Shown here one piece after another: positions 1,784 through 60,929 of a stretch of DNA of 64,000 nucleotides. The stretch's first letter is position 1; each line of letters begins with the position of its first letter. Position numbers and translations under genes: made by a program. The notes beneath the pieces are model-generated. The model made no database searches and had not been told where the DNA came from. It saw nothing but the letters and a program-made list of their open reading frames with translations. This DNA is from a virus. The stretch spans positions 62,001 through 126,000 of the IMG/VR virus record IMGVR_UViG_3300027733_000028. One strand, given 5' to 3'.

Positions 1784-2182
1784 ATGAAACATATACAAAA
1801 TTTTGAGGAATTCGTTAACGAATCGATCATAAACGAAGGTAAATTCACTGACGTTTGGCCAACAATGCCTTACGGAGATTGGAAATCTGAATATGACATT
1901 CCAAATAGCATTCAAAAAGAGCTATACCTGGAACTTCAATCTAAATTAGGTTCTAAGTCAGTAAAGGTAAAAGAAGACATTGAAGACCGAGCAAAATCTC
2001 CAGTATTTAATGAATTTATTACGATGCCAGAATGGAATATGTTTTATAATTGGACTAATCGTTCTGAATCTACTACCGTTGCTGCTTTTGAATTAAAAAA
2101 TGGAGAAATTGCAGTTGCCGTATATCAAACGTATTCAAGGAGCGATCCAAAAACCACACAAATGTGGACTATTACTAAATAA
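1784..2182 (+). CDS. Capsid-targeted internal protein candidate (isolated copy of the tagged family)
   Basis: A 132-residue protein beginning MKHIQNFEEFVNES, the same N-terminal tag carried by ten genes at 22424-26841. The tag resembles the T4 internal-protein capsid-targeting sequence (MKTYQEFIAEA), and VNE or the later INE fits the hydrophobic-x-Glu cleavage rule of T4 gp21-type prohead proteases. The rest (about residues 20-132) is soluble, with an unrecognised fold ending in strands with alternating hydrophobics. It stands far from the main array, preceded by an AGATATATAA late-type motif and followed by a strong terminator, so it is probably its own late transcription unit. Confidence 0.7.
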   Translation: MKHIQNFEEFVNESIINEGKFTDVWPTMPYGDWKSEYDIPNSIQKELYLELQSKLGSKSVKVKEDIEDRAKSPVFNEFITMPEWNMFYNWTNRSESTTVAAFELKNGEIAVAVYQTYSRSDPKTTQMWTITK

Positions 2183-16301: not shown

Positions 16302-18092
16302 ATGTTTAAAGTAAAAGAATATAAAGAGGAAAATTCAGAAGATAACAAAGTAATTTGGACATCTGCAAAAGTTGAAAAACTTCTTGTGGCAATGGAAGAA
16401 GGATATGCTACGGTTGACCATCCATTTTATGAAGGTGATCCTAGTTATCGAAAAGGAAATATTGTATTTGAATATAGTGATTGGGAATATGAAGAGATAA
16501 AGAAATGTGCTAAGGATATCATTCACTTTGCCAATCATTATTGTACGGTAATGACAGATGAAGGTTACATGAAAATCGAACTTCGTCCATATCAAGAAGA
16601 TGTACTTCGATCATATCAAGCAAATCGTTGGAATATCTTTATGGCATCTCGTCAAATAGGTAAAACTATTACATCTTCTATATTTTTAACATGGTATCTT
16701 CTATTTCACTTTGATAAAAATGTACTCCTTATGTCTAATAAAGGAGCAACCACTAAAGAGATTATGGATAAGATCAAAGCAATCGTTGAAGGTCTTCCAT
16801 TCTTCTTAAAACCTGGTGTTAATAAGAAAGACGTTATGACAATGATATTCGATAATAAATGTCGTATCATTGGTCAGAATACTACAAAAACCGGTGGTAT
16901 TGGATTTACCATCCATTTGCTATTTATAGATGAGTTTGCTCACATTCCAGAAGGAATTAAGAGAACCTTCTATGAAAACGTATATCCAACTTTATCATCA
17001 TCCAAAATATCCAGGGTTATAATCACAAGTACACCTAATGGATTTGATCTATTTCATGATTTATATTCATCTGCTATGGATGGATCTAATGAGTATAAAG
17101 CAATGAGAGTTGATTGGTGGCAAGTTCCAGGTAGAGATGAAGAATGGAAAGAACGAGAGATAGCAAATTTAGGTTCGTTAGAAGCTTTTAATCAACAATA
17201 TGGTTGCCAATTTCTTTCATCTTCTAATTTACTTCTTTCATCCGATGAATTAAAAAGACTTAAGCGAGATGAAGCAGAATATATCTTTCAGGAATTTGAT
17301 GCTTTAGATGATTTAGGTTTGGATTATTCTCAGCTTAAATGGCATCCTGATTTTGATATATTAGATATCGACGATCCAAATAAATTCTTCATATTTGCCA
17401 TTGATTTGGCTGAAGGAATAGGACGAGATCATTCTATCATAAATATATTTGAACTTGATTCGTTAACGTATGAAGATATTGAAAAATTAGAATCGCCAGG
17501 AGGAATAACGGATTTCTTTTCATTAAGACAAGTTGGTTTATTTAGATCTAATATACATCCAATAGAAAGTTTTGCAAAAATTCTTTATACGATGTCTGTG
17601 AAAATTTTTGATCAGGAAAATCTACGACATGTAATTGAATATAATGTTTATGGTGCTGAGTTAATGAAAAACTTAATTACGTTATATCCATCATCCAATG
17701 ATTTTGATGAGGATTGTGTAGTTAGGTATCATCATAGAGTCGGTGCTAAAGTTAAACAACCCGGACTTAGATTAAATAAAGATTTGAAGAAAATTTATTG
17801 TGAAAAGATGAAAGCTTTGATAATGTCTGGAAAAATTCAATTAAACGAGAGACAATCTATACAAGAGGCTTCTATGTTTTCTAGAAATCCTTCTGGAACA
17901 TATTCAGCTCAAACTGGCCATGATGATATTATTATGTCGGCGGTTTCTGTATCTTCTTTCTTCGATACTTTAGATTTTGCAGACATCGTAGAAGAGTATT
18001 TCGAATTCCTCGATGGTGAGAAAGTCGCTAAAATAGAACAGATCCTAGATGAACTAGGAGACGATACAGGGGAAATATATGATATTTTTTAG
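16302..18092 (+). CDS. 17: Large terminase subunit, T4 gp17-like
   Basis: A 596-residue packaging motor and nuclease. The ATPase has Walker A SRQIGKT (116-122, the T4-type SRQxGKT form), Walker B LLFIDEFAH (207-215) and the STPNGFD coupling motif (about 244-250). The RNase H-fold nuclease starts at FIFAIDLAEG (about 366-375) with catalytic Asp and ends near GHDDIIMSAVS (about 540-550). Length is close to T4 gp17 (610). It would cut and package concatemeric DNA by a headful mechanism. The gene follows the deacetylase by 3 nt, and a late-type promoter separates it from the sheath gene. Confidence 0.95.
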   Translation: MFKVKEYKEENSEDNKVIWTSAKVEKLLVAMEEGYATVDHPFYEGDPSYRKGNIVFEYSDWEYEEIKKCAKDIIHFANHYCTVMTDEGYMKIELRPYQEDVLRSYQANRWNIFMASRQIGKTITSSIFLTWYLLFHFDKNVLLMSNKGATTKEIMDKIKAIVEGLPFFLKPGVNKKDVMTMIFDNKCRIIGQNTTKTGGIGFTIHLLFIDEFAHIPEGIKRTFYENVYPTLSSSKISRVIITSTPNGFDLFHDLYSSAMDGSNEYKAMRVDWWQVPGRDEEWKEREIANLGSLEAFNQQYGCQFLSSSNLLLSSDELKRLKRDEAEYIFQEFDALDDLGLDYSQLKWHPDFDILDIDDPNKFFIFAIDLAEGIGRDHSIINIFELDSLTYEDIEKLESPGGITDFFSLRQVGLFRSNIHPIESFAKILYTMSVKIFDQENLRHVIEYNVYGAELMKNLITLYPSSNDFDEDCVVRYHHRVGAKVKQPGLRLNKDLKKIYCEKMKALIMSGKIQLNERQSIQEASMFSRNPSGTYSAQTGHDDIIMSAVSVSSFFDTLDFADIVEEYFEFLDGEKVAKIEQILDELGDDTGEIYDIF

Positions 18093-18146: not shown

Positions 18147-21100
18147 ATGGCAATATCTCCTAGTCTACAACAATTCAAATCTTCAGGTGTTTACCGATTA
18201 GAATTCGACAAGAGTCAAATTACTAATATTCCATCTGAAACAATCCGTTTAATTATCGGATTCTCAAAAAAAGGACCTTTTAATACTCCTGTTCTTTGTA
18301 AAGACACCGTCTTCTTTAAAGAAATTTTTGGAGATATTGATACTTCTCTTGAAAGAAAAGGTTCGTTCTTCCATAGAACGGCTCTAGTTTCTCTTGATAG
18401 AGGTCCAGTTATTGTATTGAATCTTTTGAATCTTGACGATACTCTAGATCAATCACAATTCCGCTCAATCTCTACTGCTTCTTGGCAAGCTAATTCAGCG
18501 GTTAAGTATGCTCCAGTATCAAATTATTTCAACCAAGATAAATTCTGGTTCACTGATGCTCAAGCTCTTATTGACACTGCAGATAATTCTGATTATCAAT
18601 CAGTTTTAGCTCAAAGATTACTTAACCTTGCAAATGTTGGTAGAAAAAACATGTCAGTTTTTACTAAAAAATCTACAACTTTAGGTTTCGATATTTTAGC
18701 TAAAGATTGGTACGGAACTGGTAAAGTTCCAGAATTCATTAACGAAAATGATTACATCTCTGATTATATGGTAGATTTGATTATCGTTGAAGGTGACTTC
18801 TCTAATTATCAATCTCTTGCAATCGATCCAATTTATGGAACTTATTTCGATGCAACTGGTTTAAAAACTACTATCACTGATTCTTATGGAAATATTTTAG
18901 ATGGTTTAACTGCATTCTTAAACTTAAATTCAGTTAATGTACTAGGTGTTTATACTGGTTGTTTAATTCCAGAATTCCAAGATAAAAATGGTAATAACCT
19001 TTTCATTCAAGATCTAGTTAATCTAGAAACTTCTAAGACTGGTTTGCTATTAGGAATTAATGTAGATACTATTGATGATGCTCCTGAAACTATTGGAAAC
19101 GATTTAATTGACTTAATTGGTCATGGTATCGAATCTCAAGAACCTACAGTAGTAGACTTCCTTTCTTATTATGGTTCTATTGTTTCTGCAATGCCTTATG
19201 CCGGAGCTACCGGTATCGATACTCTTATCGTTGCTGGAACTGCTGGTCAAACTGGTGCTCAGGCATTAATGATTGCTTCTGCTGGTTTAACTGGAGCTTC
19301 TGCTACAAACGGTTGGAAAACTACAACAGGTCATTATGATACTTTATTGGTATATGGTCCTTCTGCTACTCTTCCCACTTCATTTGCATCTAAATTTGCT
19401 AACGAAACAGCATTCGCTACTTTCCGTACTGCCGTTTCAGTGGATAATACATTCATTAAAGCTGGTGCTTCAGCGAATACAACTGGTGCTTCAGGTAACT
19501 ACTCTTATTTAGCTTCCGAATCTTATGATACTACAACTGATATCTTAACACTTAAGATCTCTAACGTTGCTGGTTCTGGTGTTACTGGTCCTACTTCAGT
19601 TGCTCAAGGTTATTATTACTTATACCCAGTTGGTTTAACCGCTGGTGGTACTGCTTCATTACCGGTTATCCAATCAGTGAATTTCAATTTTGCTGAAGGT
19701 GGTAATTTGTTTACTGGTGTTGCAAATCAACTTTATCAAGATAATCTTTCTGGTATTTTAACTGATGGAGATAAAGTTAAAGTTAATAATGCAGGTGCTA
19801 CTGCTACTGCTTATGCTGAATTTAACCGAGTATCTACTAATGACTTTAGTGGTGCTACATTTACTAACGCTAATGCTTTTGGTAATGAAGCTCCTATTCT
19901 AAATGCATTTACTAATTACATTGAAGTTAATGCTTATACAAATCCTAACTTATCTACTGGAGCTACTGCAATTACTCCGCAAACTACTTATGTGGTAAAT
20001 ACTTTAACCGGTAATATCAACGAATCTTTCGCTCTATGGGGTGGAACTGCCTATACAAATCCTACTAACGTAGTTTGGGTAGATAATGGTTCTACTGGTC
20101 CTCTTGGATTAAATGGTTTCAATGGTCTAATCATTAAAAATCAATTATTGCTTCAGAACTTTGGCGGAACTGGTGGTGCTACATCTAACAGTCCTATTAC
20201 TGGAAAATCAAGATTAACTCGCATCCTTTCAGTTGCTGAAATTACCGATCCTACATCTGATCTTTACAAAAAGATCAAGATTACTACAGTAGATCCCATC
20301 TTTATTTCTGCAACAAGTGAAATTGAAAGATATAAAGAGGCTTCTAATTTTGTTACTCACTACAGACCTTCTGCTCTTAGAGGTTATACTTTAAGAACTG
20401 GTCAAATGCCTGATGGTACTGATACTCGTCAAAATGAAATTCTAGACGTTATGTATAACAGTAATATCGCGGCTGCTCTTGCTGATCGTGAAACTATTAG
20501 TTTCCGTTATATTATCGATTCATTCCAAGGAACAATCGAACCTTCAACGAAGATTCGTTTAACTAAACTTGCTAAGAATCGTCAATCTGCTTTAGCAATT
20601 GTCAATATGCCTTCAGTGAAACAATTTAAAGATAGTACTAACCCTATATTCAAATTAACTTCATCTTCTCAATTCGATGCTGCTTATATTGCTGATGGTG
20701 GTAATCTATCAACAAATCCTTCAAACATATTCAGCTTACCAGGTATTGCTGATGGTGGTAATTACTCCGCTTTCTATGGTCCTAACTTGACTATCAGAGA
20801 AGCCGGTAAAAACACTTCAGTTCCTCCTGCTGCTCATGTTGGTAACTTATACATTGACAAATACACTCAAGCCCTTCCTTATTCAATTATCGCTGGTCCT
20901 CGTAGAGGTGTGATAACAGGAACTGGTCTTGTAGGTGTTGAATACAATTTTGATAGAACCGATCTAGATTCAATTGAACCATTTGGTTACAATGCAATCG
21001 TTAACAAGAGAGGTTTTGGATTAACTATTAATGCCAATCAAACTGCTCAACAAACTGTAAAATCTGCTCTTTCACAAATTCACGTAAGAGAGTTATTAAT

Positions 21101-21398
21101 TTACATTCAAGATGGTATTGAGGCTATCCTTAAAAATTACCGTTGGGAATTCAACAGTGCTAATAATCGTTTAGAAATTAAAACTTTAGCCGACAATTTC
21201 CTATCACAAATCCTTTCTGATGGTGGAGTTTACGACTTCCAAAACATTATGGATACAACTAACAATACGACTGAGATCATCGATAACAATTATGGAATCC
21301 TTGATACTTACATCGAACCTGTTAGAGGAATGGGTATCTTAGTTCACAGAACTACAATTCTAAGAACTGGTGCTATTTCAACTGGTAACTTTATTTAA
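18147..21398 (+). CDS. 18: Contractile tail sheath protein, T4 gp18-like, enlarged
   Basis: A 1083-residue sheath subunit. The N-terminus (PSETIRLIIGFSKKGPFNTP and following strands) and the C-terminal polymerisation domain (residues about 960-1083, HVRELLIYIQDGIEAIL through GMGILVHRTTILRTG) match contractile-tail sheaths. T4 gp18 is 659 residues; the extra length lies in a Gly/Ala/Thr/Ser-rich central region (about 340-690) that looks like added surface beta-domains, which could decorate the tail outside. The gene follows a late-type motif, and a hairpin and the tube gene follow, the usual sheath-tube order. Confidence 0.92.
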   Translation: MAISPSLQQFKSSGVYRLEFDKSQITNIPSETIRLIIGFSKKGPFNTPVLCKDTVFFKEIFGDIDTSLERKGSFFHRTALVSLDRGPVIVLNLLNLDDTLDQSQFRSISTASWQANSAVKYAPVSNYFNQDKFWFTDAQALIDTADNSDYQSVLAQRLLNLANVGRKNMSVFTKKSTTLGFDILAKDWYGTGKVPEFINENDYISDYMVDLIIVEGDFSNYQSLAIDPIYGTYFDATGLKTTITDSYGNILDGLTAFLNLNSVNVLGVYTGCLIPEFQDKNGNNLFIQDLVNLETSKTGLLLGINVDTIDDAPETIGNDLIDLIGHGIESQEPTVVDFLSYYGSIVSAMPYAGATGIDTLIVAGTAGQTGAQALMIASAGLTGASATNGWKTTTGHYDTLLVYGPSATLPTSFASKFANETAFATFRTAVSVDNTFIKAGASANTTGASGNYSYLASESYDTTTDILTLKISNVAGSGVTGPTSVAQGYYYLYPVGLTAGGTASLPVIQSVNFNFAEGGNLFTGVANQLYQDNLSGILTDGDKVKVNNAGATATAYAEFNRVSTNDFSGATFTNANAFGNEAPILNAFTNYIEVNAYTNPNLSTGATAITPQTTYVVNTLTGNINESFALWGGTAYTNPTNVVWVDNGSTGPLGLNGFNGLIIKNQLLLQNFGGTGGATSNSPITGKSRLTRILSVAEITDPTSDLYKKIKITTVDPIFISATSEIERYKEASNFVTHYRPSALRGYTLRTGQMPDGTDTRQNEILDVMYNSNIAAALADRETISFRYIIDSFQGTIEPSTKIRLTKLAKNRQSALAIVNMPSVKQFKDSTNPIFKLTSSSQFDAAYIADGGNLSTNPSNIFSLPGIADGGNYSAFYGPNLTIREAGKNTSVPPAAHVGNLYIDKYTQALPYSIIAGPRRGVITGTGLVGVEYNFDRTDLDSIEPFGYNAIVNKRGFGLTINANQTAQQTVKSALSQIHVRELLIYIQDGIEAILKNYRWEFNSANNRLEIKTLADNFLSQILSDGGVYDFQNIMDTTNNTTEIIDNNYGILDTYIEPVRGMGILVHRTTILRTGAISTGNFI

Positions 21399-21492: not shown

Positions 21493-22047
21493 ATGCCAGG
21501 ATTACCACATTTTCTAAACAGTAAAGCGGCTACTAAATACTACGAACCGTTTTATCAAAACTTGTTTGAGGTAAACATTCTTCCTCCTTCTACTATTTCT
21601 GGTGGAGAGATCTTGATTGAACACGTAAATAAAATCGGCGGTTTAACTCAAGATAGAGGTTCAGAAGCAACCACTCAATCATACAAATTCGCTAAGAGAT
21701 CTTACGCAATGGGAACTCCTACAGATACCATTACAGATTTAACAATCGGTTTCTCTCTTAACTTAAACGATGCAAACGAACTATACGTATATAAAACATT
21801 ACGTGATTGGTTCCGTTTGATCTATAACCCACTTACTGGTGAACAAGGTTTGAAGAAAGATTATGTAGGTACTCTCGTTATTACAAACTATAATCGTGCC
21901 GGAGATATCTTCTGGCAACGTACTTTCCATGATTGTTTCCCTACTGGAGATATCGGTGAATTAGCTGCAGATTACTCAGGTGGTGAAAAAGTTGATATGC
22001 CAGACGTTAAATTTCGTTCTGATTGGTGGGAAGAGAACATCGTTTAA
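21493..22047 (+). CDS. 19: Tail tube protein, T4 gp19-like
   Basis: A 184-residue tube subunit, slightly longer than T4 gp19 (163). The typical N-terminal KYYEPFYQNLFEVNILPP and the beta-rich core ending YSGGEKVDMPDVKFRSDWWEENIV fit the tube/Hcp fold. It forms the inner tube that the sheath surrounds. Start ATG follows an A-rich leader. A strong terminator comes after the gene. Confidence 0.92.
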   Translation: MPGLPHFLNSKAATKYYEPFYQNLFEVNILPPSTISGGEILIEHVNKIGGLTQDRGSEATTQSYKFAKRSYAMGTPTDTITDLTIGFSLNLNDANELYVYKTLRDWFRLIYNPLTGEQGLKKDYVGTLVITNYNRAGDIFWQRTFHDCFPTGDIGELAADYSGGEKVDMPDVKFRSDWWEENIV

Positions 22048-22423: not shown

Positions 22424-22687
22424 ATGAAAAACTACATAAACACATTTGAAGAGTTCTTAAATGAATCAATTAACGAAAATGTTTGGGCAGATATAACTAA
22501 ATCAGCAAAACCTACTAAAGGTCCTTGGACTCTAGTATCATCTGATAATAAAAAAGTTTTAGCCCAGAGCACAACTGATAATATACACATGCTTCCTGCT
22601 CATTTTGAATCACTGAAACTAAAATTTCCAAAATCAAGTATTCATATAGAAAGTGCTTCCGGTGAAGTAATTTGGAAAATGAAATAA
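22424..22687 (+). CDS. Tagged internal-protein candidate 1
   Basis: 87 residues beginning MKNYINTFEEFLNES, first of ten consecutive genes with this N-terminal tag. The tag is like T4's capsid-targeting sequence; LNE at residues 12-14 fits a prohead-protease cleavage site and INE follows at 16-18. The mature part of about 70 residues looks like a compact beta-alpha domain (GPWTLVSSDNKKVLAQS, then SIHIESASGEVIWKMK). Function unknown; by analogy with T4 internal proteins it could be injected with the DNA to act against host defences. Confidence 0.7.
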   Translation: MKNYINTFEEFLNESINENVWADITKSAKPTKGPWTLVSSDNKKVLAQSTTDNIHMLPAHFESLKLKFPKSSIHIESASGEVIWKMK

Positions 22688-22692
22688 TCAAT

Positions 22693-23148
22693 ATGAAAAA
22701 TTACATAAACACATTTGAAGGTTTCTTAAATGAAGTTCGATTAAATGAAGATAAAATGCCGGTAGTTTCGGACTTTAAAGCTAACCCAACCGTATTGGAT
22801 GGTGTTAAAATTAAAAACCTAGCCGAAGAAAATCCTGAACAGGTGTTCATTATAAAGAAGGAATATGGCAAATGGCCTGATGATATACTTGCTAAATACA
22901 GCAAAACAGAAACTTCGATAACTGAATTTCTACCAATCGATAAATATGCTACAATGACAAAGTTAGAGTACTTAGGTTCTATGGCTGAAGTTATTGATAT
23001 GATGTTCGGAGCTGACGAATGGCCACCAGCTAAACAGAAAGAACTTGCAAATGAACCATACTTATCTACTAATAAACAAGGAGAAGTTATAATAGATGTT
23101 CAACGAGGAAATATCAGTAAGTTTGTAAAATTAGCAGAAAAAAAGTAA
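22693..23148 (+). CDS. Tagged internal-protein candidate 2
   Basis: The ATG at 22693 (151 residues, MKNYINTFEGFLNEV) is chosen over an upstream in-frame ATG because it starts the tag and leaves a 5-nt gap after the preceding gene. A second potential cleavage site, RLNE, follows at 16-19. The body is mostly polar and helical (MTKLEYLGSMAEVIDMMFG) with a C-terminal strand segment. No family recognised. The first 42 nt are almost identical to those of the neighbours at 22424, 23159 and 23766 while the bodies differ. Confidence 0.7.
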   Translation: MKNYINTFEGFLNEVRLNEDKMPVVSDFKANPTVLDGVKIKNLAEENPEQVFIIKKEYGKWPDDILAKYSKTETSITEFLPIDKYATMTKLEYLGSMAEVIDMMFGADEWPPAKQKELANEPYLSTNKQGEVIIDVQRGNISKFVKLAEKK

Positions 23149-23158
23149 TTTAACTAAT

Positions 23159-23764
23159 ATGAAAAATTACATAAACACATTTGAAGGCTTCTTAAATGAA
23201 TCTAAATACAAAGGAAATATCTCAGGAGATTCTGCTGAATATATTGCTAAAGAAATGTCACAATATGTTAAAGGCATAATTAAACAGCCTAATGATAATG
23301 TTACTTACTTCCATTTAAAAGATAAATCCGGCAAATCAAAAGTTATTAAAACCTTATTAGATGTTTATGGATTAGAAGCAGTAGATGGTGGAAATCAATT
23401 TTCTCCATCACCTACTATTAAATTTGATAACGATCAACTTCTTGAATCCCTTAGATCAGGTCCTAATGATGCTAAAATATATCCCATTAAAAAAGGAAGT
23501 GATCCAGAAGATCTTCTTTCCGGTAGATCTAGAGGATCATGGGTAAGTTCAAAAACCATTAATGATATATTAGACGTTTTTGGTAAGGAAATGACCATTT
23601 ATAAAGGTGACGAAATCACAGAATTCCTTCAAGTTAATAGCCGAGATAATAGTGACATATATAAAATAGTTAGACGAGATTTAAGAGGACCTAGAACGGT
23701 TGGTTATATCCCTTCATATTATCAGAATTTTGACCAAACCGAAGAAATAAACAATACTCGTTAA
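23159..23764 (+). CDS. Tagged internal-protein candidate 3
   Basis: 201 residues beginning MKNYINTFEGFLNES. The mature part seems to have two halves: a helix-strand module (SAEYIAKEMSQYVKGIIK, VTYFHLKDKSG) to about residue 90 and a second, basic module to the end (SWVSSKTINDILDVFGKEMT, then a Tyr-rich tail). No catalytic motif is obvious. It is followed after one base by the next tagged gene. Role inferred only from the tag. Confidence 0.68.
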   Translation: MKNYINTFEGFLNESKYKGNISGDSAEYIAKEMSQYVKGIIKQPNDNVTYFHLKDKSGKSKVIKTLLDVYGLEAVDGGNQFSPSPTIKFDNDQLLESLRSGPNDAKIYPIKKGSDPEDLLSGRSRGSWVSSKTINDILDVFGKEMTIYKGDEITEFLQVNSRDNSDIYKIVRRDLRGPRTVGYIPSYYQNFDQTEEINNTR

Positions 23765-23765
23765 T

Positions 23766-24248
23766 ATGAAAAACCACATAAACACATTTGAAGGATTCTT
23801 AAATGAAGCTCGATTAAATGAAAGCAAACCTGCTATGATGTACTATGTAGTAGCCAAGGATGTCATTAAGGATAGAAGACTTAAAGTATATCCTGAAAAC
23901 ATCGAAAGACTTTTGAACAACTTACAAGCAGACGGACATTTATCATATGATGCAACGATAACATCAGATGCAAAGAAAGATATTGAAAACGCATTAGATA
24001 AGTTAGACTTGAAAGGGAATGAATTGCTTTCATATGCAAGAAAAGGCATGAAGTACGAAAGTGAAGATGTTAATGAAGCCAATCAAATTAAAGTTGGAAC
24101 TTTTGTTAGATACAAAAAAGACGAAGATTTTACTGGTGGTAAGATCAAATCTATAAGTTCTGGTAAAGCAGAAATACATAATTGGGATGGTTCAACAACA
24201 GAACTTCCACTTAAAGATCTTGAATATATTGAGTCTTGGAATAATTAA
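23766..24248 (+). CDS. Tagged internal-protein candidate 4, with KOW/SH3-like C-terminal segment
   Basis: 160 residues beginning MKNHINTFEGFLNEA, with a second site RLNE. The middle (about 20-100) is helical, and a VNEA sequence near residue 103 offers a third protease-like site that would release the last 50 residues. That tail (GTFVRYKKDEDFTGGKIKSI, then AEIHNWDGSTTELP) looks like a small SH3-like barrel as in KOW domains that bind nucleic acid or protein. It may therefore yield two peptides after processing. Confidence 0.68.
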   Translation: MKNHINTFEGFLNEARLNESKPAMMYYVVAKDVIKDRRLKVYPENIERLLNNLQADGHLSYDATITSDAKKDIENALDKLDLKGNELLSYARKGMKYESEDVNEANQIKVGTFVRYKKDEDFTGGKIKSISSGKAEIHNWDGSTTELPLKDLEYIESWNN

Positions 24249-24251
24249 AAT

Positions 24252-24659
24252 ATGAAACCTATCAAACTATATAAAGAGTTTATTAATGAGGCAAAAGACG
24301 TTGATTCGGCAATGAAGAAAATCGATGATTTGCCAAAAGGATCAACCTTTGAAGATGCCAAAAGAATAGATCGTATTTTTGATATCAGTAAACATAGTTG
24401 GAGTGAGGTTGTGGAAACTTTTGAAAAGAATCAAAAATCCGCAAAGATTAAACCGATAAATATAAAAGACATACAAATAACTCAACCAAATATCCAGAGC
24501 AATAAAGTGAAAGCCATGATTGAGAAATTTGATAAATTACCTACAATTAATGCAGTTCAATTTCCGGATGGAATATCCATATATGATGGACATCATCGTC
24601 TATTAACTGCTTGGTCAATAGGAGAAACACGAATCAAAGTTAATCTTGTAAAAATATGA
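24252..24659 (+). CDS. Tagged internal-protein candidate 5, ParB/sulfiredoxin-like domain
   Basis: 135 residues beginning MKPIKLYKEFINEAKD; its YKEFINEA is the closest in the array to the T4 sequence YQEFIAEA. The C-terminal half (about 70-135) resembles the ParB N-terminal/sulfiredoxin superfamily: an INIKDIQITQPN strand, then FPDGISIYDGHHRLLTAWSI with the characteristic DGHHR. Such domains hydrolyse CTP or ATP, or act as DNases in phages and plasmids. A packaged nuclease or nucleotide-binding effector is a reasonable hypothesis. The end overlaps the next gene by 4 nt. Confidence 0.7.
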   Translation: MKPIKLYKEFINEAKDVDSAMKKIDDLPKGSTFEDAKRIDRIFDISKHSWSEVVETFEKNQKSAKIKPINIKDIQITQPNIQSNKVKAMIEKFDKLPTINAVQFPDGISIYDGHHRLLTAWSIGETRIKVNLVKI

Positions 24660-24886
24660 AACACCTACACACATACAAAGAGTTCTTATTCGAGTCAACG
24701 ATTTCCGAAATGAAGATAACTTCAGTTGGCGTTAAAGAGATTCTTAAGAAGCTTTATGACGATGCTAAACTTACAAAAGCATTACATTTTAAAAACTTCC
24801 GAGATGCACTCGATTCTATTCTTGGATATAGTCAAACGGAATTAGAAGAATTAGAAACAGAGATAAAAGAACTAGAGCACGCTTAA
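24656..24886 (+). CDS. Tagged internal-protein candidate 6 (short)
   Basis: 76 residues beginning MKHLHTYKEFLFEST; LFE at 11-13 fits the cleavage rule, as does the following ISE. The rest is helical and acidic at the end (ELEELETEIKELEHA), with a probable coiled coil. ATGA overlap with the upstream gene indicates coupled translation. Function unknown. Confidence 0.62.
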   Translation: MKHLHTYKEFLFESTISEMKITSVGVKEILKKLYDDAKLTKALHFKNFRDALDSILGYSQTELEELETEIKELEHA

Positions 24887-24908
24887 GATAATTTAAAAAA
24901 TAAAAAAC

Positions 24909-25739
24909 ATGAAACATACACAAACATTCAAAGAGTTCTTAAATGAACAAGAAGAGATACTTAATGAAGATAGTTCTCTTGCACTTATGGTAATACTGCA
25001 AGCGGCTATAGTTAATGGACTTCTAATAGGTCAAATGGCGGCTAGTGGTGGTGGAGATGGCTTTCATCCTATCGATGATTTAAAAGCTTGGTGGGCGAAA
25101 CGTAAAAAAGATAAAGCTGTAAAAAGTATTGTTGATAAATTAAAAGAAGATCCTGAAGTTTTAGCCTTTTTGAAAATGTCAAATTGGGCACAAAAAGGAA
25201 AATGGTATAAACTTATTGAACCTAAACTTAATGACGAAGAGAAAAAATATCTAAAAAGTATTTCAAGAACTCCATTTATGAATGAGGAAGTTAATGAAAA
25301 TTCCGCAATCCTTCTTGATCTTTCTGATAAGCAGTTGGCACTTTCTATAAAGGCTAAATTACCAGCCAAGTATAAAAAAGATACGAAGACTTTAATATAC
25401 AATGCTCCATATTCAATGGTTTCTCATGGTGCTAAACTTACAAACCTTCCAACTCCTTCACGAGTATATCAATTGGAAAAAATGAATGAAACTTATAGAG
25501 GATCTGATAATTGGATATCTTTATCTTCATTAGCTATTGTACAAGATACAACCAATCAAGTTACTTTTGTAATTGTATATGAAGAATTTGATCCAATTCA
25601 ATTTGATGAAATAAAATCAAATAAAGATTTGTACAAAGAAGAGGATTATAAAGACGAAAAAGATTTGCTTAAAAAGATGCAAACTTGGTTTGCTTATTCT
25701 GAAAAGGTCTTTAAAGAAGTAATAGAAGATCACTCATAA
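24909..25739 (+). CDS. Tagged internal-protein candidate 7 (longest, with hydrophobic segment)
   Basis: 276 residues beginning MKHTQTFKEFLNEQ, with further LNE (19-21) and VNE (about 128-130) sites. A hydrophobic, Gly-ending stretch (about 25-46, LALMVILQAAIVNGLLIGQM) could insert in a membrane, followed by a basic helical region and, after about residue 130, a soluble mixed domain (LSDKQLALSIKAKLPAKYKK onward). If cut at the internal site it would yield a membrane-active peptide and a C-terminal protein. Function unknown. Confidence 0.68.
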   Translation: MKHTQTFKEFLNEQEEILNEDSSLALMVILQAAIVNGLLIGQMAASGGGDGFHPIDDLKAWWAKRKKDKAVKSIVDKLKEDPEVLAFLKMSNWAQKGKWYKLIEPKLNDEEKKYLKSISRTPFMNEEVNENSAILLDLSDKQLALSIKAKLPAKYKKDTKTLIYNAPYSMVSHGAKLTNLPTPSRVYQLEKMNETYRGSDNWISLSSLAIVQDTTNQVTFVIVYEEFDPIQFDEIKSNKDLYKEEDYKDEKDLLKKMQTWFAYSEKVFKEVIEDHS

Positions 25740-25750
25740 AAAAACATAAT

Positions 25751-26227
25751 ATGAAACATATACTCACATTCAAAAACTTCTTAAACGAGGAAAGAGTTTA
25801 TGGAATGTTCAATGATTCTCAAGGAAAACCATCTAAACTTTCACAAGAGATTTTAGATATTTGTCTAAAAGCACTACCTAAATATGTAATAGATAATATT
25901 GAATCAGTTGAAGCTTCCGGTTATTCTAAGACAAATTTAGCATCACCTCCTACGGTTAGTAATAAAGGTCAATCAAGAGGTGAAAATGATTATACGACTA
26001 TTGTTCTAATATTCAAAAATCCAATGGGAAAATCTAAAACAACTGAATTGACGGTTGGATTAAGAAAAAGAACTTCTGGACCAGGAACTGGTTATCTTGC
26101 GGTTAAACCTACTGCAAATGGTCATTATGTTTTACCTGAACATAGTGCCGCAATTGAATTTTATGATGCAGCGCCTGAAAGTTTAGCGGATTTATATAAG
26201 AGTACACTAGAAAAATTAATGAAATAA
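25751..26227 (+). CDS. Tagged internal-protein candidate 8
   Basis: 158 residues beginning MKHILTFKNFLNEE. Nucleotides 1-40 are nearly identical to those of the gene at 26593 while the bodies are unrelated. The mature region has helices up to about 60, a Gly/Ser/Asn loop, a strand block (YTTIVLIFKNPMGKSKTTEL) and ends in a short helix. Six bases of leader repeat the usual AATATGAAA pattern. No family recognised. Confidence 0.66.
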   Translation: MKHILTFKNFLNEERVYGMFNDSQGKPSKLSQEILDICLKALPKYVIDNIESVEASGYSKTNLASPPTVSNKGQSRGENDYTTIVLIFKNPMGKSKTTELTVGLRKRTSGPGTGYLAVKPTANGHYVLPEHSAAIEFYDAAPESLADLYKSTLEKLMK

Positions 26228-26228
26228 T

Positions 26229-26591
26229 ATGAAACATATACCAACATTCGATAATTTCCTAAATGAAGGAACCATCATGATTTTTCACTACTCAAAGAAA
26301 TCTTCAGAGATTGATGGTGACGTGAAAGAATTACAGAAGAAAGCTCAAGAATTTATTAAAATCGCAAGAGACAAAGATTACAATATATCTTCTAACGATT
26401 CCGTACTTTATTTTCCAAATTTTAAATGGGCAGGAGGTAAACAAATCTTTGGACCATCATTAGGTATTAAAGCAGGATCAGAAACAATGCTAATTAATCC
26501 AATAGGCTCTGATAAAATAATCAAGATTAGCGAAGGCTTGCTTGTTCGTTTTGTAAAAGACGGCAGAATCGAATCATATAATTTATACTAA
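26229..26591 (+). CDS. Tagged internal-protein candidate 9
   Basis: 120 residues beginning MKHIPTFDNFLNEG. After the LNE site comes TIMIFHYSKK, an acidic-basic helix (DVKELQKKAQEFIKIARDK) and a beta-rich remainder. One base separates it from the preceding stop codon. The function is unknown; assignment rests on the tag and location. Confidence 0.66.
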   Translation: MKHIPTFDNFLNEGTIMIFHYSKKSSEIDGDVKELQKKAQEFIKIARDKDYNISSNDSVLYFPNFKWAGGKQIFGPSLGIKAGSETMLINPIGSDKIIKISEGLLVRFVKDGRIESYNLY

Positions 26592-26592
26592 T

Positions 26593-26841
26593 ATGAAACA
26601 TATACTCACATTCAAAAACTTCTTAAATGAAGGATTCAAGAAACCTTATAGCGAAAAAATGAGCCTTGAGGATTTTTCTGCTATAGAAGTTGGAAGTGAG
26701 GTTCTTTATGCTGGAGCAACTTACGAAGTGGTTAACAACGATGGTGCAACTCTTCAATTAAAACCGGCTAAAGGTGCTAATGGTAAAGCGACTAAAGTTA
26801 ATTTCTCAATGTTTAATGTTGCTGGAGCAATCCGCGATTAG
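26593..26841 (+). CDS. Tagged internal-protein candidate 10 (last of array)
   Basis: 82 residues beginning MKHILTFKNFLNEG. After the cleavage-like site the mature part of about 68 residues forms a probable small beta-barrel (IEVGSEVLYAGATYEVVNND, LQLKPAKGANGKATKVNF), again SH3/KOW-like as in candidate 4. It ends the array; an 85-nt leader with TCATATAATTA separates it from the sugar genes. Confidence 0.66.
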   Translation: MKHILTFKNFLNEGFKKPYSEKMSLEDFSAIEVGSEVLYAGATYEVVNNDGATLQLKPAKGANGKATKVNFSMFNVAGAIRD

Positions 26842-26926: not shown

Positions 26927-28288
26927 TTGAAATTAAGACAAGGGTTATTATTCCTAAAATCTCTACACACAAGATCTAAATCCGATGAAGAAGTTCTTCA
27001 ATGGATAGAATCTAGACGATCATTAGTTAAGCACACGATTCAACAAATCGATCTTAATAAGCTAAATGGTTGGAATTTCTACGATCATAAGATAGAACAT
27101 ACTTCTGGTAAATTTTATCAGATTCATATTAGACGCAATGAGTTAGATGGAAGGATTTGGGATCAACCAATAATCAATCAACCCGAAATTGGTATTCTTG
27201 GATTTATTACCAAACAAATCGATGACGTACTTCATTTTCTAGTTCAAGCTAAAATTGAACCAGGAAATATCAATATCGTTCAGTTATCACCAACCGTACA
27301 ATCAACTAAAAGTAATTTCACTAAAGTTCATGGTGGTGCATTAACACCCTTTGTAGAATATTTCTTAAAAGGAGAATCTAGAATTTTAGTAGATCAACTA
27401 CAATCCGAACAATCTAGTAGGTTCTTTCAAAAACGTAATCGCAATATTATTATAGAAGTTGAAGATGAGTTATCTCATGAAAATTATTTATGGATGACTC
27501 TTGGAGATCTTGTTGCATTAACTAGATATCCTAATACTGTCAATATGGATAGTCGAACCGTTTTAAGTTGTATTCACTTTGGTTCATATTCATTTGAACA
27601 TCTAGAACTAAGAGATTTTCTTGGTGGAATTTCACATGATTCTGCTTGGATAGATTCACTACTTCGTAAAGATGTATATCAAAAATCCCATCCAGAAATT
27701 CTTTCATTAATTACCGATCTTAAATTTAGAAGAGAAGCTTTGACTAGGTTAATTTATCTTTCAGAATCACATGATTGGAATTTGATTGATGGTAAGATTG
27801 TTCATAAAGATGAAAAATATTTTGATGTAGTAGGTTATCGAATATTTATTGAAAATCGAGAATCCGCTCAATGGGATCAACCTTTAATCCGACCTAAATC
27901 TACTGGAATATGTTGTTTCTTTGCTCGTAAATTTGAAGGAGTATTTCACTTACTAGTTCAGCTAAAAGATGAGATTGGATCTTTTGATGGTGTTGAAATG
28001 GCACCAACTATTCAAATGTCTGAAGAGAATTTAGATCTATCGCCTTTCTTTGAATCGTATCAAAGACTAATAAATACAGATTCGGTTTTATTTGATGTTA
28101 TGCAATCCGAAGAAGGAGGAAGATTTTATCAAGAACAAAACCGAAATATTATCATAGAAGTTAATGAAGAACTGGAACTTCCAAGAAATTATATTTGGAT
28201 GACTCTTAATCAACTTAAAACATTCTTACAATATAACAATTACGTAAATATTCAAACACGTTCAATTATGTCATCTTTACCTCTATGA
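26927..28288 (+). CDS. NDP-hexose 2,3-dehydratase (EvaA family)
   Basis: A 453-residue protein made of two homologous halves (about 1-220 and 235-453), each with W-x-x-x-x-x-x-I-x-H, a WDQP-I sequence, LVQ-K, E/QMAPT-or-LSPTVQ, and R-F-x-x-x-x-R-N-I-I-I-E; the tandem layout is typical of NDP-4-keto-6-deoxyhexose 2,3-dehydratases that start 2-deoxysugar synthesis. The start is a TTG at 26927, because a stop codon lies in frame just upstream and no ATG is nearby. It overlaps the reductase gene by 4 nt. The 4,6-dehydratase and nucleotidyltransferase that must act before it are not in the window. Confidence 0.88.
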   Translation: MKLRQGLLFLKSLHTRSKSDEEVLQWIESRRSLVKHTIQQIDLNKLNGWNFYDHKIEHTSGKFYQIHIRRNELDGRIWDQPIINQPEIGILGFITKQIDDVLHFLVQAKIEPGNINIVQLSPTVQSTKSNFTKVHGGALTPFVEYFLKGESRILVDQLQSEQSSRFFQKRNRNIIIEVEDELSHENYLWMTLGDLVALTRYPNTVNMDSRTVLSCIHFGSYSFEHLELRDFLGGISHDSAWIDSLLRKDVYQKSHPEILSLITDLKFRREALTRLIYLSESHDWNLIDGKIVHKDEKYFDVVGYRIFIENRESAQWDQPLIRPKSTGICCFFARKFEGVFHLLVQLKDEIGSFDGVEMAPTIQMSEENLDLSPFFESYQRLINTDSVLFDVMQSEEGGRFYQEQNRNIIIEVNEELELPRNYIWMTLNQLKTFLQYNNYVNIQTRSIMSSLPL

Positions 28289-29238
28289 AAGTAGCTATTC
28301 TAAATTGTTCAGATATTGCAAAACGAAGAATGATTCCGGCATTTCAGGCAATACCTGAAGTTGAAGTTTCTATCGTATGTAGCCGAGATATTCGTAGAGC
28401 TAAACAATATGCTGAAGAATTTGGAATCCCAAAATATACGGATAATCCAGATGAAATTATTGGAGTTGATCTAGTTTATATTTCATCTCCTCCATCTGAA
28501 CATTTTGATGCGATTAAAACATTTATAAAGAGAAAAATTAATATTCTTTGCGAAAAATCTCTTACCATAGATGCATATCAAACAACCTATCTAATTAATC
28601 TAGCCGATAAACAAGGAGTTCTTATACAAGAAAATTATGGATTTCCTTTTCATACTCAGTGGAAATGGATAAAAGAAAACCTAAATAAAATAGGAGATCT
28701 TCTTTACATAAGAAGTGGATTTGAATTTCCTCCAAGAAATACCGAAACAGATTTTCGTTACAAATCTGCTCTCGGTGGTGGTGCTCTTTTCGATGCCGGT
28801 GGATATCCTATTAAATTAGCCTCTTTATTATTGGGAACTCCTCAAAAACTTGATGCAGTTACTCATATATCAAAATCACTTGATATTGATCTTTCTGGAA
28901 GAACATTTATTATTGATGAAACTGGAAAATCTGCATTTTTAACTTGGAGTTTTGAATCTACTTATCGTTGTGATGTAGAAATTGTAGGAACTCAAGGAAC
29001 AATTAAAGCTGGTAAGATATTTACTCCTAGAATTGATGAACATGTTGAAGTGTCAATTTCACTTATTGGAGAGCCGGTAGAAAGACAACAATTTGTTTGC
29101 GATCATTTCGTTGAACTTATTCGAGATTTTATAAATAGAATAAAGATTAAAGATAACTCTCATCATAAAAGTATATTAAAACAATCAAAATGGCAAACAT
29201 ATGTATCGTCTACTAGTATCAGAACCTTCACTAACTAA
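28285..29238 (+). CDS. Gfo/Idh/MocA-family sugar oxidoreductase
   Basis: A 317-residue NAD(P)-dependent enzyme: N-terminal Rossmann fold (VAILNCSDIAKRRMIPA, 3-19; the usual Gly-x-Gly is altered to N-C-S), YISSPPSEHF (65-74) and the family CEKS (89-92) with catalytic Lys91. In 2-deoxysugar pathways such enzymes reduce the 3-keto group left by the 2,3-dehydratase, and this gene overlaps that dehydratase by 4 nt, so that is the likely step. The C-terminal domain is complete. The end overlaps the aminotransferase start by 38 nt. Confidence 0.88.
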   Translation: MKVAILNCSDIAKRRMIPAFQAIPEVEVSIVCSRDIRRAKQYAEEFGIPKYTDNPDEIIGVDLVYISSPPSEHFDAIKTFIKRKINILCEKSLTIDAYQTTYLINLADKQGVLIQENYGFPFHTQWKWIKENLNKIGDLLYIRSGFEFPPRNTETDFRYKSALGGGALFDAGGYPIKLASLLLGTPQKLDAVTHISKSLDIDLSGRTFIIDETGKSAFLTWSFESTYRCDVEIVGTQGTIKAGKIFTPRIDEHVEVSISLIGEPVERQQFVCDHFVELIRDFINRIKIKDNSHHKSILKQSKWQTYVSSTSIRTFTN

Positions 29239-30283
29239 CTTCGAAGAATTTGCAAATATTGCAAAAGAAGTTTGGGCAAGTGGAATCCTAACGCACAATG
29301 GACCTAAGGTCAAAGAACTCGAACATCGGTTAAAAGAACAATGGCAGATACCTCATCTATCATTAGTTACAAATGGAACTATTGCACTTGAAGTTGCAAT
29401 GAGAGCTCTAGAACTTCCTAAAGGAAGTGAAATTATTACAACTCCATTTACCTGGATTGCAACTGCATCAGCTATTCAATGGCAAGATTATGAACCTATT
29501 TTTGTTGACGTTGATCCAAATACTCTTAATATAGATCCGGCTAAAATTGAAGAAAAAATAACAGATAGAACATCTGCTATTTTAGCGGTTCATGTATTCT
29601 CGAATCCATGTGATGTAGATTCTATTCAAGAAATTGCAGATCGTCGAGGTCTACGAGTTATTTATGATGGTGCTCATGCAGTTGGTGTAAAATATAAAGG
29701 AGTAGATCTTTCTCAATTCGGTGATATTACAACTCATTCATATCATGCAACTAAAATTTATAATAGTGGAGAAGGTGGATCGATTATTACTAGAAATCCA
29801 GAGTTAGCTAAAAGAATTGATCGTCTTCGCTTCTTTGGACATAATGAAAAGAAAGATATTGTACATGAAGGAACTAATGCTAAAATGCATGAAATCTCTG
29901 CTGCAATTGGATTAGCTAATTTAAAAATGTTACCTAAAACAATTATGCATAGAAAACTTTTAACTCTTATGTATAAACATAGAATGGAAGGTTTACCGGT
30001 TAGATATCAAGCAATCAGCAACGACTCTTATAATTTTTCATATTTCCCCATCATATTTGAAACAGAAGAACAATGTCTTAAAGTGTATGCGGCATTAGAT
30101 GCTATTAAAATTATGCCTCGTAGATATTTCTATCCATCAGTTAACGAATTCAAAATCTTTGATCCTCAATCATGTCCTATTAGCGAAGATATTTCTAGAC
30201 GAATTCTTTGTCTACCATGTCACGATGGTGTGAAGCTTATGGATGTCGATGAAATCTCACACACAATAATCAAAACTTTCTAA
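29201..30283 (+). CDS. DegT/DnrJ/EryC1-type sugar aminotransferase
   Basis: A 360-residue PLP-dependent aminotransferase. Signatures: NGTIALEVAMRAL (58-70), TPFTWIATASAIQW (81-94), FVDVDPNTLNID (101-112), YDGAHAVG (155-162) and the PLP-binding Lys185 in SYHATKIYNSGEGG. It would aminate a keto-deoxysugar nucleotide, probably at C4 after the dehydratase and reductase. The next gene is an acetyltransferase starting 1 nt after the stop, so the product is likely an N-acetylated amino-deoxyhexose. Confidence 0.92.
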   Translation: MYRLLVSEPSLTNFEEFANIAKEVWASGILTHNGPKVKELEHRLKEQWQIPHLSLVTNGTIALEVAMRALELPKGSEIITTPFTWIATASAIQWQDYEPIFVDVDPNTLNIDPAKIEEKITDRTSAILAVHVFSNPCDVDSIQEIADRRGLRVIYDGAHAVGVKYKGVDLSQFGDITTHSYHATKIYNSGEGGSIITRNPELAKRIDRLRFFGHNEKKDIVHEGTNAKMHEISAAIGLANLKMLPKTIMHRKLLTLMYKHRMEGLPVRYQAISNDSYNFSYFPIIFETEEQCLKVYAALDAIKIMPRRYFYPSVNEFKIFDPQSCPISEDISRRILCLPCHDGVKLMDVDEISHTIIKTF

Positions 30284-30284
30284 G

Positions 30285-30899
30285 ATGCATGTAGTTATTG
30301 GAGCTAATGGATTAGCTAAACAAGTACTTCCTTTATACGACGCAAATCCTAGAGTTATCTTCTTTGATGATACTGAAAATGCAGGAGAGAACCTATATGA
30401 ACATAAAATTGCACATGATCTTAAATGGGTAAAAGAGTATACGTCAATTGGCGAGACAGTAAATTTCTCAATTTGTATAGGAAATCCTAAATGGCGTGAG
30501 TATTTTTATTATCTTCTGGTTGATATGGGAGCCACACCAATTAATATCTTATCGGAATTATCCTCCATTCAAGAGAGATCCGAGATTGACACAGGGAATA
30601 TCTTTTTAGACTACACTTTAGTAGAAACCGATGTAAAAATTGGAAAAGGAAACCTTATAAATTGCTATGCCGGTTTATTTCATGATTCTCAAATAGGAGA
30701 TTTTAATGAGATTATGCCAGGAGCTAAAATTCTAGGAGGAGCTAAAATAGGTAACTCTTGTAGAATAGGAACGAATGCAACAATTCTTCCACAAATACAT
30801 ATTTGCTCGAATGTAGTAATTGGAGCTGGAGCAGTGGTTACTAAAAATATTACTGAACCAGGAACATATATTGGAATTCCTGCAAGGAAGCAAGGATAA
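30285..30899 (+). CDS. Sugar N/O-acetyltransferase, left-handed beta-helix (NeuD/PglD type)
   Basis: A 204-residue protein with an N-terminal small nucleotide-sugar-binding domain (VVIGANGLAKQVLPLYD, 3-19) and a C-terminal hexapeptide-repeat helix (about 95-195: IGKGNLINCYAG, IGDFNEIMPGAKILGG, IGTNATILPQIHIC, VIGAGAVVTKNI) ending GIPARK. This is the NeuD/PglD/PerB layout, which acetylates amino or hydroxyl groups on nucleotide sugars. Together with the three genes before it, it forms a compact pathway to an acetamido-deoxysugar. Confidence 0.88.
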   Translation: MHVVIGANGLAKQVLPLYDANPRVIFFDDTENAGENLYEHKIAHDLKWVKEYTSIGETVNFSICIGNPKWREYFYYLLVDMGATPINILSELSSIQERSEIDTGNIFLDYTLVETDVKIGKGNLINCYAGLFHDSQIGDFNEIMPGAKILGGAKIGNSCRIGTNATILPQIHICSNVVIGAGAVVTKNITEPGTYIGIPARKQG

Positions 30900-30922: not shown

Positions 30923-31804
30923 ATGGAATTTTTAAAGTACAACAACTTCATTCTTAATGAGCAATCTAAATGGGTTAATTTAGACACTATTAATGAAGCT
31001 GCACTTACGGCTACTCCAGATAAAAGCGTTAAGTTTGGTATTTGTATTACCACTTACAAAATTGATGCTGGTGGTAGACAAAATCACATGTCCACCGAAA
31101 AAGTTCTGAGAGAATGTTTAGAGTCAGTTAAAACACAGAGTTGGCCAGAATGGAAAGTCTATATTATGGGAGACGCATATCCACAAGAAGAATGGCCGGA
31201 AATTGAAAAACTTGCTGCATCTATCGTTCCAAAAGATAAACTTTGGATGGATAATCTAAAAACACCAGGAGAAAGAGACAAATATGATGGATCTATTCCA
31301 CATCTAACAGGAGGAAATACGGCAGCAAACGTGACCATCGCTCAAATGAAAAAAGATGGCATTAAGTATTTTGCACGTCTTGACCATGATGATGCTTGGA
31401 AAACCGATCATTTAAAAACTCATGCTACTGCTTATACACAATTCCCAGAAGTTGTTTATAGTTTAACACAAGCTCGCAAGAAAAGAGTAAAAGGAGATGC
31501 CGGATCTTACATGTATTTTCCTGACAAAGGAACATATGAGAATTCTGAAAATAATTACACATTAGGTCTTGGTGGACAATGTCATTCAGCAATGACTTGG
31601 AAATTAGAACCTTTAAAATATATCAAGTATCGTACTTGGGATCAACAAAAAGCGACACAACCTCGTAGAAAAGAGTGCTTCCCTGGCGATTGGGATAATA
31701 CTGAAAGAATTAAAAGAATTGTAGAAGATGAAAATAATAAACACTCAATGATTTTTGTTCCTAAATTAACTGTAAAATATCGTAACTCTGAAGGAAAATT
31801 TTAA
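30923..31804 (+). CDS. GT-A glycosyltransferase (family 2-like) with capsid-tag-like N-terminus
   Basis: A 293-residue protein. After a non-conserved N-terminus, the fold of family 2 glycosyltransferases begins at FGICITTYK (about 38-46), with YIMGD and the metal/nucleotide-binding LDHDDAW (153-159). The first 13 residues MEFLKYNNFILNE resemble the tag of the internal-protein family, with a further INE at 23-25, although one residue longer. It is next to the amino-sugar pathway and may transfer its product. Whether it is packaged or processed is only suggested by the tag. Confidence 0.82.
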   Translation: MEFLKYNNFILNEQSKWVNLDTINEAALTATPDKSVKFGICITTYKIDAGGRQNHMSTEKVLRECLESVKTQSWPEWKVYIMGDAYPQEEWPEIEKLAASIVPKDKLWMDNLKTPGERDKYDGSIPHLTGGNTAANVTIAQMKKDGIKYFARLDHDDAWKTDHLKTHATAYTQFPEVVYSLTQARKKRVKGDAGSYMYFPDKGTYENSENNYTLGLGGQCHSAMTWKLEPLKYIKYRTWDQQKATQPRRKECFPGDWDNTERIKRIVEDENNKHSMIFVPKLTVKYRNSEGKF

Positions 31805-53953: not shown

Positions 53954-53959
53954 ATATTT

Positions 53960-54415
53960 ATGAAAAATCTACTTCTTATATTACTTCTGCTTCCAATGTT
54001 ATCATTCGGACAAATCAATTCATGTGTTCATGTTGATTCGGTTTATTCAACCGCTAAATATAAGGATATGGGTAATCGTGATATTCGCTTTGGTATTAGA
54101 CAAATGACCGAGGATATTCTTTCTGAAAAATATTGTATCAATTCATCATCTCCGGATGTAGATGTAGAGGTATTTTTCTTTGGTTTACCTAGAAGTACTT
54201 ATAGAATAATTGGAGTAGAGAAAACTAATCAAATAACTCAAGTTGGCATTCGTATTTATTATAATGGTGTTAAATACGAAGCTTATGGAGAATCTGATAC
54301 TGAAATACGAACTGTGATGTTAGAGATTGTTGAAGGACAGACTCCATTTTCAAAGATGACGGTTTCTAATGCGATAAAAAAAGCAATAGAATCATGCGTA
54401 TCTCAAATGCCTTAA
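53960..54415 (+). CDS. Small exported protein with CsgG-like strand pattern
   Basis: A 151-residue protein with a signal peptide (1-18, LPMLSFGQ). The mature part has DIRFGIRQMTEDILSEKY, IGVEKTNQITQVGIRIYYNG and a C-terminal helix NAIKKAIESC, which recalls the CsgG-like protein at 50481 (IT.LGLQI and the C-terminal helix) at smaller size. It may be a partner or decayed relative of that channel. It lies 6 nt after the lectin gene and overlaps the next gene by 22 nt. Confidence 0.6.
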   Translation: MKNLLLILLLLPMLSFGQINSCVHVDSVYSTAKYKDMGNRDIRFGIRQMTEDILSEKYCINSSSPDVDVEVFFFGLPRSTYRIIGVEKTNQITQVGIRIYYNGVKYEAYGESDTEIRTVMLEIVEGQTPFSKMTVSNAIKKAIESCVSQMP

Positions 54416-60916: not shown

Positions 60917-60929
60917 CATATAATAGAAT

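Follow-up and report, generated by a model that had tools for sequence, protein, structure and literature searches.

Ten consecutive genes of an uncultured T4-like phage share a short N-terminal tag and probably encode T4-style internal proteins that have been made into modular, polyprotein-like injected cargo, with a tag that mimics a motif from this phage's scaffold core. The genes lie at 22424-26841 of the window, by which we mean the whole 64,000-nucleotide stretch analyzed here (bases 62001-126000 of a 207,040-base IMG/VR virus record). The features that carry this reading are observed directly: the tag, a prohead protease, enrichment of the tag motif in the scaffold, and module gain and loss at the motif.

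Ten adjacent genes share a tag and have unrelated bodies

The array consists of ten plus-strand open reading frames (ORFs), each with an N-terminal [F/Y]xxF[L/I]xE tag, with intergenic gaps of -4 to 22 nt, and comes immediately after the genes for the sheath and the probable tail tube (Table 1). An earlier note on this DNA had described these ten genes, plus one at 1784, as tagged proteins with unrelated bodies. Both observations were confirmed: all eleven carry the tag near the N-terminus, and no pair of array bodies is related once the tag is removed (blastp of the tag-stripped proteins of the record, E<=0.01). Record-wide, the same comparison yields only two related pairs among 39 tag-stripped proteins. 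Simple gene duplication was ruled out because the bodies are unrelated. None of the ten array proteins has a Pfam match above the Pfam cut-offs, and three of the bodies have no tblastn match in 50,697 phage records. Array gene 2 starts at the ATG at 22693 and not at the TTG at 22672.

Table 1. Tagged genes, the recombination joint and neighboring head and tail genes. Positions are those of the window, except for the protease, which is given in record positions.
Feature	Position	Strand	Protein start	Remarks
Eleventh tagged gene	1784..2182	+	MKHIQNFEEFVNES...	132 aa
T4-type terminase large subunit	16302..18092	+		PF03237, E 3.9e-20
Tail sheath	18147..21398	+		PF17482, E 9.4e-8; upstream in same gene run as array
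Probable tail tube	21493..22047	+		Assigned by position after sheath; no Pfam match; conserved anchor just upstream of array
Array gene 1	22424..22687	+	MKNYINTFEEFLNE	
Array gene 2	22693..23148	+	MKNYINTFEGFLNE	151 aa
Array gene 3	23159..23764	+	MKNYINTFEGFLNE	201 aa
Array gene 4	23766..24248	+	MKNHINTFEGFLNE	160 aa; internal site ESEDVNE/ANQIK
Array gene 5	24252..24659	+	MKPIKLYKEFINE	135 aa; ParB/sulfiredoxin-like body (IYDGHHRLLTAW)
Recombination joint in gene 5 tag	24268..24289	+		22-nt direct repeat, one copy on each side of the variant's extra module; blastn of L168/L174 vs window
Array gene 6	24656..24886	+	MKHLHTYKEFLFE	76 aa
Array gene 7	24909..25739	+	MKHTQTFKEFLNE	276 aa
Array gene 8	25751..26227	+	MKHILTFKNFLNE	158 aa; relative's ortholog bears a different tag
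Array gene 9	26229..26591	+	MKHIPTFDNFLNE	120 aa
Array gene 10	26593..26841	+	MKHILTFKNFLNE	82 aa
Looser-tagged gene	30923..31804	+	MEFLKYNNFILNE...	Glycosyltransferase-like body
Prohead protease fused to scaffold-like region	52920-54821 of record (L004:920-2821)			14-residue repeats

The tag recurs throughout the record and in related phages

With the strict tag core defined as [FYW]xx[FYW][LIVM][NFTSAG]E, 38 occurrences were found in the 291 predicted proteins of the record, 29 of them within the first 13 residues. The expected N-terminal count is 0.24 (shuffled N-termini: mean 0.24, max 2 of 200), which rules out a chance origin. Three further tags become N-terminal after start correction, giving 32 strictly tagged genes, and about 39 genes of the record are tagged once looser forms are counted. 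Tagged clusters lie at about 13-15, 20, 27-29, 44-50, 60-64, 84-89, 93, 128-141 and 168-175 kb of the record. Contig G001 (254 kb), also of this phage, reaches 49 kb beyond the record and has three more tagged genes there. The search for more such genes that the earlier note had suggested thus makes its array count an underestimate.

At the DNA level, the pattern for F..F.NE occurs 25 times in the forward and once in the reverse orientation of the record (reversed control, 1 and 5). Relatives have as many as 39 (294 kb), 26 (167 kb) and 23 (246 kb) matches, which lie almost entirely on one strand; the reversed control has 0-8 per strand. PTm1, pT24 and MaF61 show no enrichment of the tested pattern, and its count in Lak-B5 is not clear of the control. 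Chryseobacterium phage MA9V-1 has a small number of matching tags. A relative's ortholog of array gene 5 (L169, L170, L173, near 1453) has an apparent non-ATG start codon, followed by a NHIPTFESFLNES tag.

Within the array, the 42-nt tag DNA of genes 1-4 differs at 1-3 positions, while the 42 nt after the tag differ at 19-35 positions and the 30 nt upstream of it at 13-21. Such near-identical tag DNA would fit a recent duplication of gene starts that left a likeness with no current function. We find this explanation hardly credible, as tag homology ends sharply at the start codon on one side and after the Glu on the other. Across records of varied phages, many different codons encode the same amino-acid pattern, and 110 unrelated proteins, representatives of the body families described below, align only in MKxIxTFExFLNE.

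The tag resembles a scaffold repeat and the T4 targeting peptide

Upstream of the window, the record encodes a T4-type portal protein gp20 (PF07230, 5e-71), a gp23 capsid protein (4e-36) and a gp21-family (S77) prohead protease (PF03420, E 1.6e-14 / 6.3e-13), the enzyme that the earlier note had proposed to look for in the rest of the genome. An S77 protease is present in 16 of the 21 tag-bearing records, among them all records >130 kb. In the phage and in its relatives alike, the protease forms a single protein with a long repeat region, a fusion annotated in Tenacibaculum phage PTm1. The protease-scaffold versions of MA9V-1 and MaF61 are >1,300 aa.

The repeats of the phage's own scaffold have a 14-residue period, and an HFxxF[LIV]xE element is invariant in the 21 listed scaffold variants of relatives. 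The tag core occurs 202 times per 33,724 residues in the protease-positive proteins of relatives, compared to 30 times per 330,445 residues of other internal sequence, an enrichment of ~66-fold inside their protease-scaffold proteins. In the record, the protease-scaffold protein holds two of the six real internal occurrences. Given the enrichment of the core motif in the relatives' protease-scaffold proteins, as 14-residue repeats and a conserved HFxxFLxE element, the tag resembles a fragment of the scaffold core.

T4 internal proteins start with MKTYQEFIAEA, as given in the earlier note. In internal protein III (IPIII) of T4, residues 4 and 7 of the tag mainly target and residues 8 and 10 matter for processing (review, PMC9026906). 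The corresponding residues of MKTYQEFIAEA, Y, F, I and E, occupy the same four positions that are conserved in the phage's tag, and the T4 gp23 processing site, FGSFLTE, also fits the tag core. The T4 propeptide of 10-19 residues is common to unrelated bodies; here too a short, predicted N-terminal propeptide carries aromatic residues at i and i+3, a hydrophobic residue at i+4 and Glu at i+6, in the same genome as a gp21-family (S77) protease. T4-spaced patterns have three sites in T4, four in RB69, one in KVP40 and none in Aeh1 or S-PM2; they have no match in the phage's record, and therefore the tag is not simply the T4 peptide. In phage PAU, the mature capsid protein is reported to have 520 of 585 residues (PMC5646251), which puts the cut within one residue of LME64/N65. 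Taken together, the S77 protease, the T4 residue pattern (PMC9026906), the gp23 site and the scaffold enrichment lend good sequence support to the capsid targeting and cleavage that had been suggested for the array.

Modules are gained and lost at the predicted cleavage motif

A strain variant (contig G026) is 92.7-99% identical to the phage in shared stretches around the array, with one array body at 87%. Of its first five array genes, four differ from the phage's by an entire module that lies between the tag and the C-terminal body. In the variant, the gene 1 tag is followed by an additional module of 148 aa (joint SAVNE/NIWADI), and in gene 5 an extra 117-aa module stands between two tag copies (joint EFINE/AKDVD). 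Missing from the variant are an 82-aa module of gene 3, ending ...DNDQLLE (joint QLLE/SLRSG), and a module of about 83 aa in gene 4 (joint DVNE/ANQIK). Gene 2 has the same make-up in both and is 97.4% identical. In gene 4, the aligned joint falls a few residues ahead of the NE site, and the gene 1 joint has several NE sites; therefore, the changes are at the site for genes 3 and 5 only, and at or near it for genes 1 and 4.

The matches flanking the gene 5 module (99.1% and 98.6% identical in L168) share 22 nt within the tag, a signature of recombination of one tag copy with another. The same arrangement is found in a second contig, from another sample, and an assembly artefact was therefore rejected for this gene. 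Fusion of whole bodies is also seen: in a relative (L178), homologs of array genes 1 and 7 share one ORF, the gene 1 homolog first, with INESLINE between them. This ORF and the variant's gene 5 each join two unrelated modules in one polypeptide, most of the domains being without a recognized family. Internal [LIVM]NE[AGSN] sites are in excess in the tagged bodies of the record (9 vs 1.5 expected) and of relatives (104 vs 15 expected). At 136672-138195 of the record (L005:11172-12695), a 507-aa tagged protein has four ESVNE[AG] sites between segments and is polyprotein-like. The gain and loss of modules at tags between related strains suggests a cargo that can be exchanged and that enters the host together with the DNA.

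The tag might instead direct proteins to another phage-made place or partner, such as a replication compartment, the tail or a membrane, the link to the head being coincidental. Tagged clusters do occur far from the head genes, and the array itself sits after tail genes. Nevertheless, the motif is enriched in the protease-scaffold protein, the tag matches the T4 gp23 processing site, and joints and internal sites alike fall at hydrophobic-x-Glu, which makes another destination very improbable.

From these sequences we infer a path of late expression, docking, packaging, cleavage and ejection, with host-directed and anti-defence functions at its end. Tagged proteins would be made late, alongside the head and tail proteins, and the aromatic/hydrophobic face of the tag would dock each of them in the prohead core. 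The gp21-type protease would then cut after hydrophobic-x-Glu, removing the tag and, at recurring internal sites, splitting a tagged protein into several mature pieces, which would be ejected with the DNA. As one short sequence would be both loading signal and cut site, recombination between copies of the tag or cleavage motif could add or remove payload modules while keeping the reading frame, and a newly acquired module would be packaged and released without further change.

Tagged bodies are diverse and turn over between relatives

The 347 tagged proteins group into 161 body families, and 110 of these families have a single member. In the nearest well-covered relative, the tail tube is 94-95% and the capsid protein 94% identical, and four tagged genes stand at the array site, with the bodies of three 65-83% identical. 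Eight further relatives are without an array at this site, and orthologous bodies carry different tags. Judged by these comparisons, tagged payloads turn over fast between relatives.

This turnover bears on the alternative that the tag is a core-docking and cleavage peptide, and that most tagged proteins are core or filler components of the prohead, like T4 gp67/gp68, rather than host-directed cargo. A tagged family near the portal in many relatives, the resemblance of the tag to a scaffold element, and the cleavage and partial retention of some T4 core proteins (PMC9026906) are consistent with such a role. Set against this, the diversity of families and the presence or absence of the array between related phages are unlike conserved assembly parts, and folds typical of enzymes or of ligand binding (RimK, cytidylyltransferase, PAP2, ParB/Srx) are recognized in several bodies. 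We therefore consider a general core or filler role unlikely.

Directly after the array, at 28285-30899 of the window, are genes resembling sugar or surface-modification genes, whose homologs are elsewhere or missing at that spot in more distant relatives. The looser-tagged gene that follows has a close counterpart in a relative (G003), a tagged gene encoding 293 aa that starts MEFLKYKNFVLNEQ, almost as the window's gene does.

Capsid protein relatives are found in phages of Tenacibaculum, Chryseobacterium, Flavobacterium and Prevotella, and in phage PAU, and the host is therefore probably a Bacteroidota. PAU is deposited as a Sphingomonas phage; we take its host to be a Sphingobacterium.

Possible functions of the tagged bodies

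Most tagged bodies are unlike anything in the libraries searched. Supported identities in the record are a RimK-like ligase, a cytidylyltransferase-like protein, KTSC and PAP2. The body of array gene 5 has a PHROG ParB-like match (4.8e-4), and its low-confidence structure model (predicted local distance difference test, pLDDT, 58) has sulfiredoxin/ParB as top Foldseek matches. In relatives, tagged bodies include ATP-grasp, GNAT acetyltransferase, pentapeptide and cREC domains. Candidates by motif only are two ADP-ribosyltransferase-like, two nucleotidyltransferase-like and one kinase-like body.

The tagged RimK-like ATP-grasp protein (record 60362-61864; L004:8362-9864) is conserved with its tag in relatives and is a candidate injected modifier of a host ribosomal protein. 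ADP-ribosyltransferase is the activity of T4's packaged Alt. Two tagged proteins (record 169027-169647 and 173301-174083; L007) share YxGTS, S[FW]T and ExE motifs and are ADP-ribosyltransferase-like; the pattern YRGT...FTSFT...E-x-E was spotted by eye and then aligned. PDB sequence searches gave no match for them and the structure model (pLDDT 33) was useless, and so this identity is a motif-level guess. An NleE-like Pfam match of 169658 fell below the cut-off and was not used.

The earlier note had read the array as likely anti-defence effectors. T4 IPI, IPII and IPIII are injected and block GmrSD type IV restriction (PMC12373910), and the domain kinds overlap those of polyvalent proteins (PMC5512222), making an anti-defence role likely for some tagged proteins and host take-over for others. 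Bodies with a recognizable fold point equally to host take-over enzymes, and among the conserved tagged genes, some of those close to the portal may belong to the core.

Comparison with known systems

T4 internal proteins are the closest in plan, with a short shared N-terminal peptide (aromatic-x-x-Phe-hydrophobic-x-Glu), diverse bodies and a gp21-family protease. Here the genes are many, as the earlier note's 'much larger arsenal' implied: about 39, where the T4-spaced pattern finds three in T4 and four in RB69, and at least 10 internal proteins are reported across T-even phages (PMC12373910). The tag is also longer and differently spaced and resembles a repeat of the fused protease-scaffold, the bodies are not generally basic, and tagged polyproteins have internal sites at which modules are gained and lost.

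Polyvalent proteins (Iyer et al. 2017, PMC5512222) likewise hold several unrelated modules per polypeptide and are thought to be injected early. Domain kinds overlap, with ParB/Srx supported here and ART, Pol-beta NTase and kinase by motif only. Unlike in those proteins, the modules here are small and linked through sites of the prohead-protease type, and many are tagged genes in their own right. Pfam scans of the tagged proteins found no built-in metallopeptidase and no peptidase family above its cut-off (the RimK protein has a sub-threshold Zn_protease match); an embedded peptidase domain is seen in many, not all, polyvalent proteins. In the P1 Dar system (PMC9024508), an N-terminal signal of DarB loads an anti-restriction protein into the head, although the Dar proteins are few, large and without a shared consensus. 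SPN3US and phiKZ (PMC5694885) have many head proteins, several cut by the prohead protease and ejected, but with mostly much longer propeptides and without a short common tag. Phage PAU (JQ362498) has related head genes, and at least 13 surrounding genes share a tag of their own, MKT[LI]xxL[YF]E, with 14 pattern matches genome-wide and none in controls (JQ362498.1, L011, e.g. record 100248-113735). Two of these genes are annotated as internal capsid protein. The PAU tag differs in sequence, and its protease and scaffold are annotated as separate genes.

Discussion

Several observations weigh against injected, scaffold-tagged cargo. T4 gp22 has no match to the tag core pattern, and most tags have 5-7 residues before the first aromatic, compared to three in T4. 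Mature tagged bodies are not generally basic, unlike T4 internal proteins (median pI 6.4 tagged vs 5.9 untagged; 38% above pI 8), basicity being a property of the T4 set and not definitional. Relatives conserve some of the tagged genes, namely the RimK family and the family close to the portal, and these may be parts of the core and not ejected cargo. Passage through a portal would probably require payloads of 250-500 aa to be unfolded or cut. Two tests are less clean than their numbers: a profile from other phages' scaffold repeats only, which ranks tagged genes of the record above untagged ones (area under the curve 0.90), is partly circular, both sets having been found with the same core, and the pairs behind the shifted-homology module boundaries near cleavage-like sites (48/105 vs 19.7 expected) are not independent.

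With these points taken into account, we think it somewhat probable that the injected cargo forms an undescribed delivery platform. In this platform, a scaffold repeat would serve as universal loading tag and cut site, payloads would be single or tandem polyproteins of exchangeable modules, and the DNA of the tag or cut site would be the recombination joint. By this means, uncultured T4-like phages, probably of Bacteroidota, would swap dozens of injected effectors. The parts that are new relative to T4-type internal proteins are the scaffold-like tag and module exchange at cleavage motifs; no paper describing either was found in a search of open-licence literature.

If this is true, injected phage proteins could be listed from sequence alone, by reading the tag, and hundreds of proteins of unknown function would become candidate host-take-over or counter-defence factors. 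It would explain how a payload is added in one step, as anything recombined in behind the tag would be loaded and then released by cleavage. The resemblance between tag and scaffold hints at why the T4 targeting peptide is effective, and for the study of protein delivery into bacteria, a relative of T4 carrying such a wide range of cargo would be a natural model. What phages inject, and how that set is renewed, would become a directly testable question.

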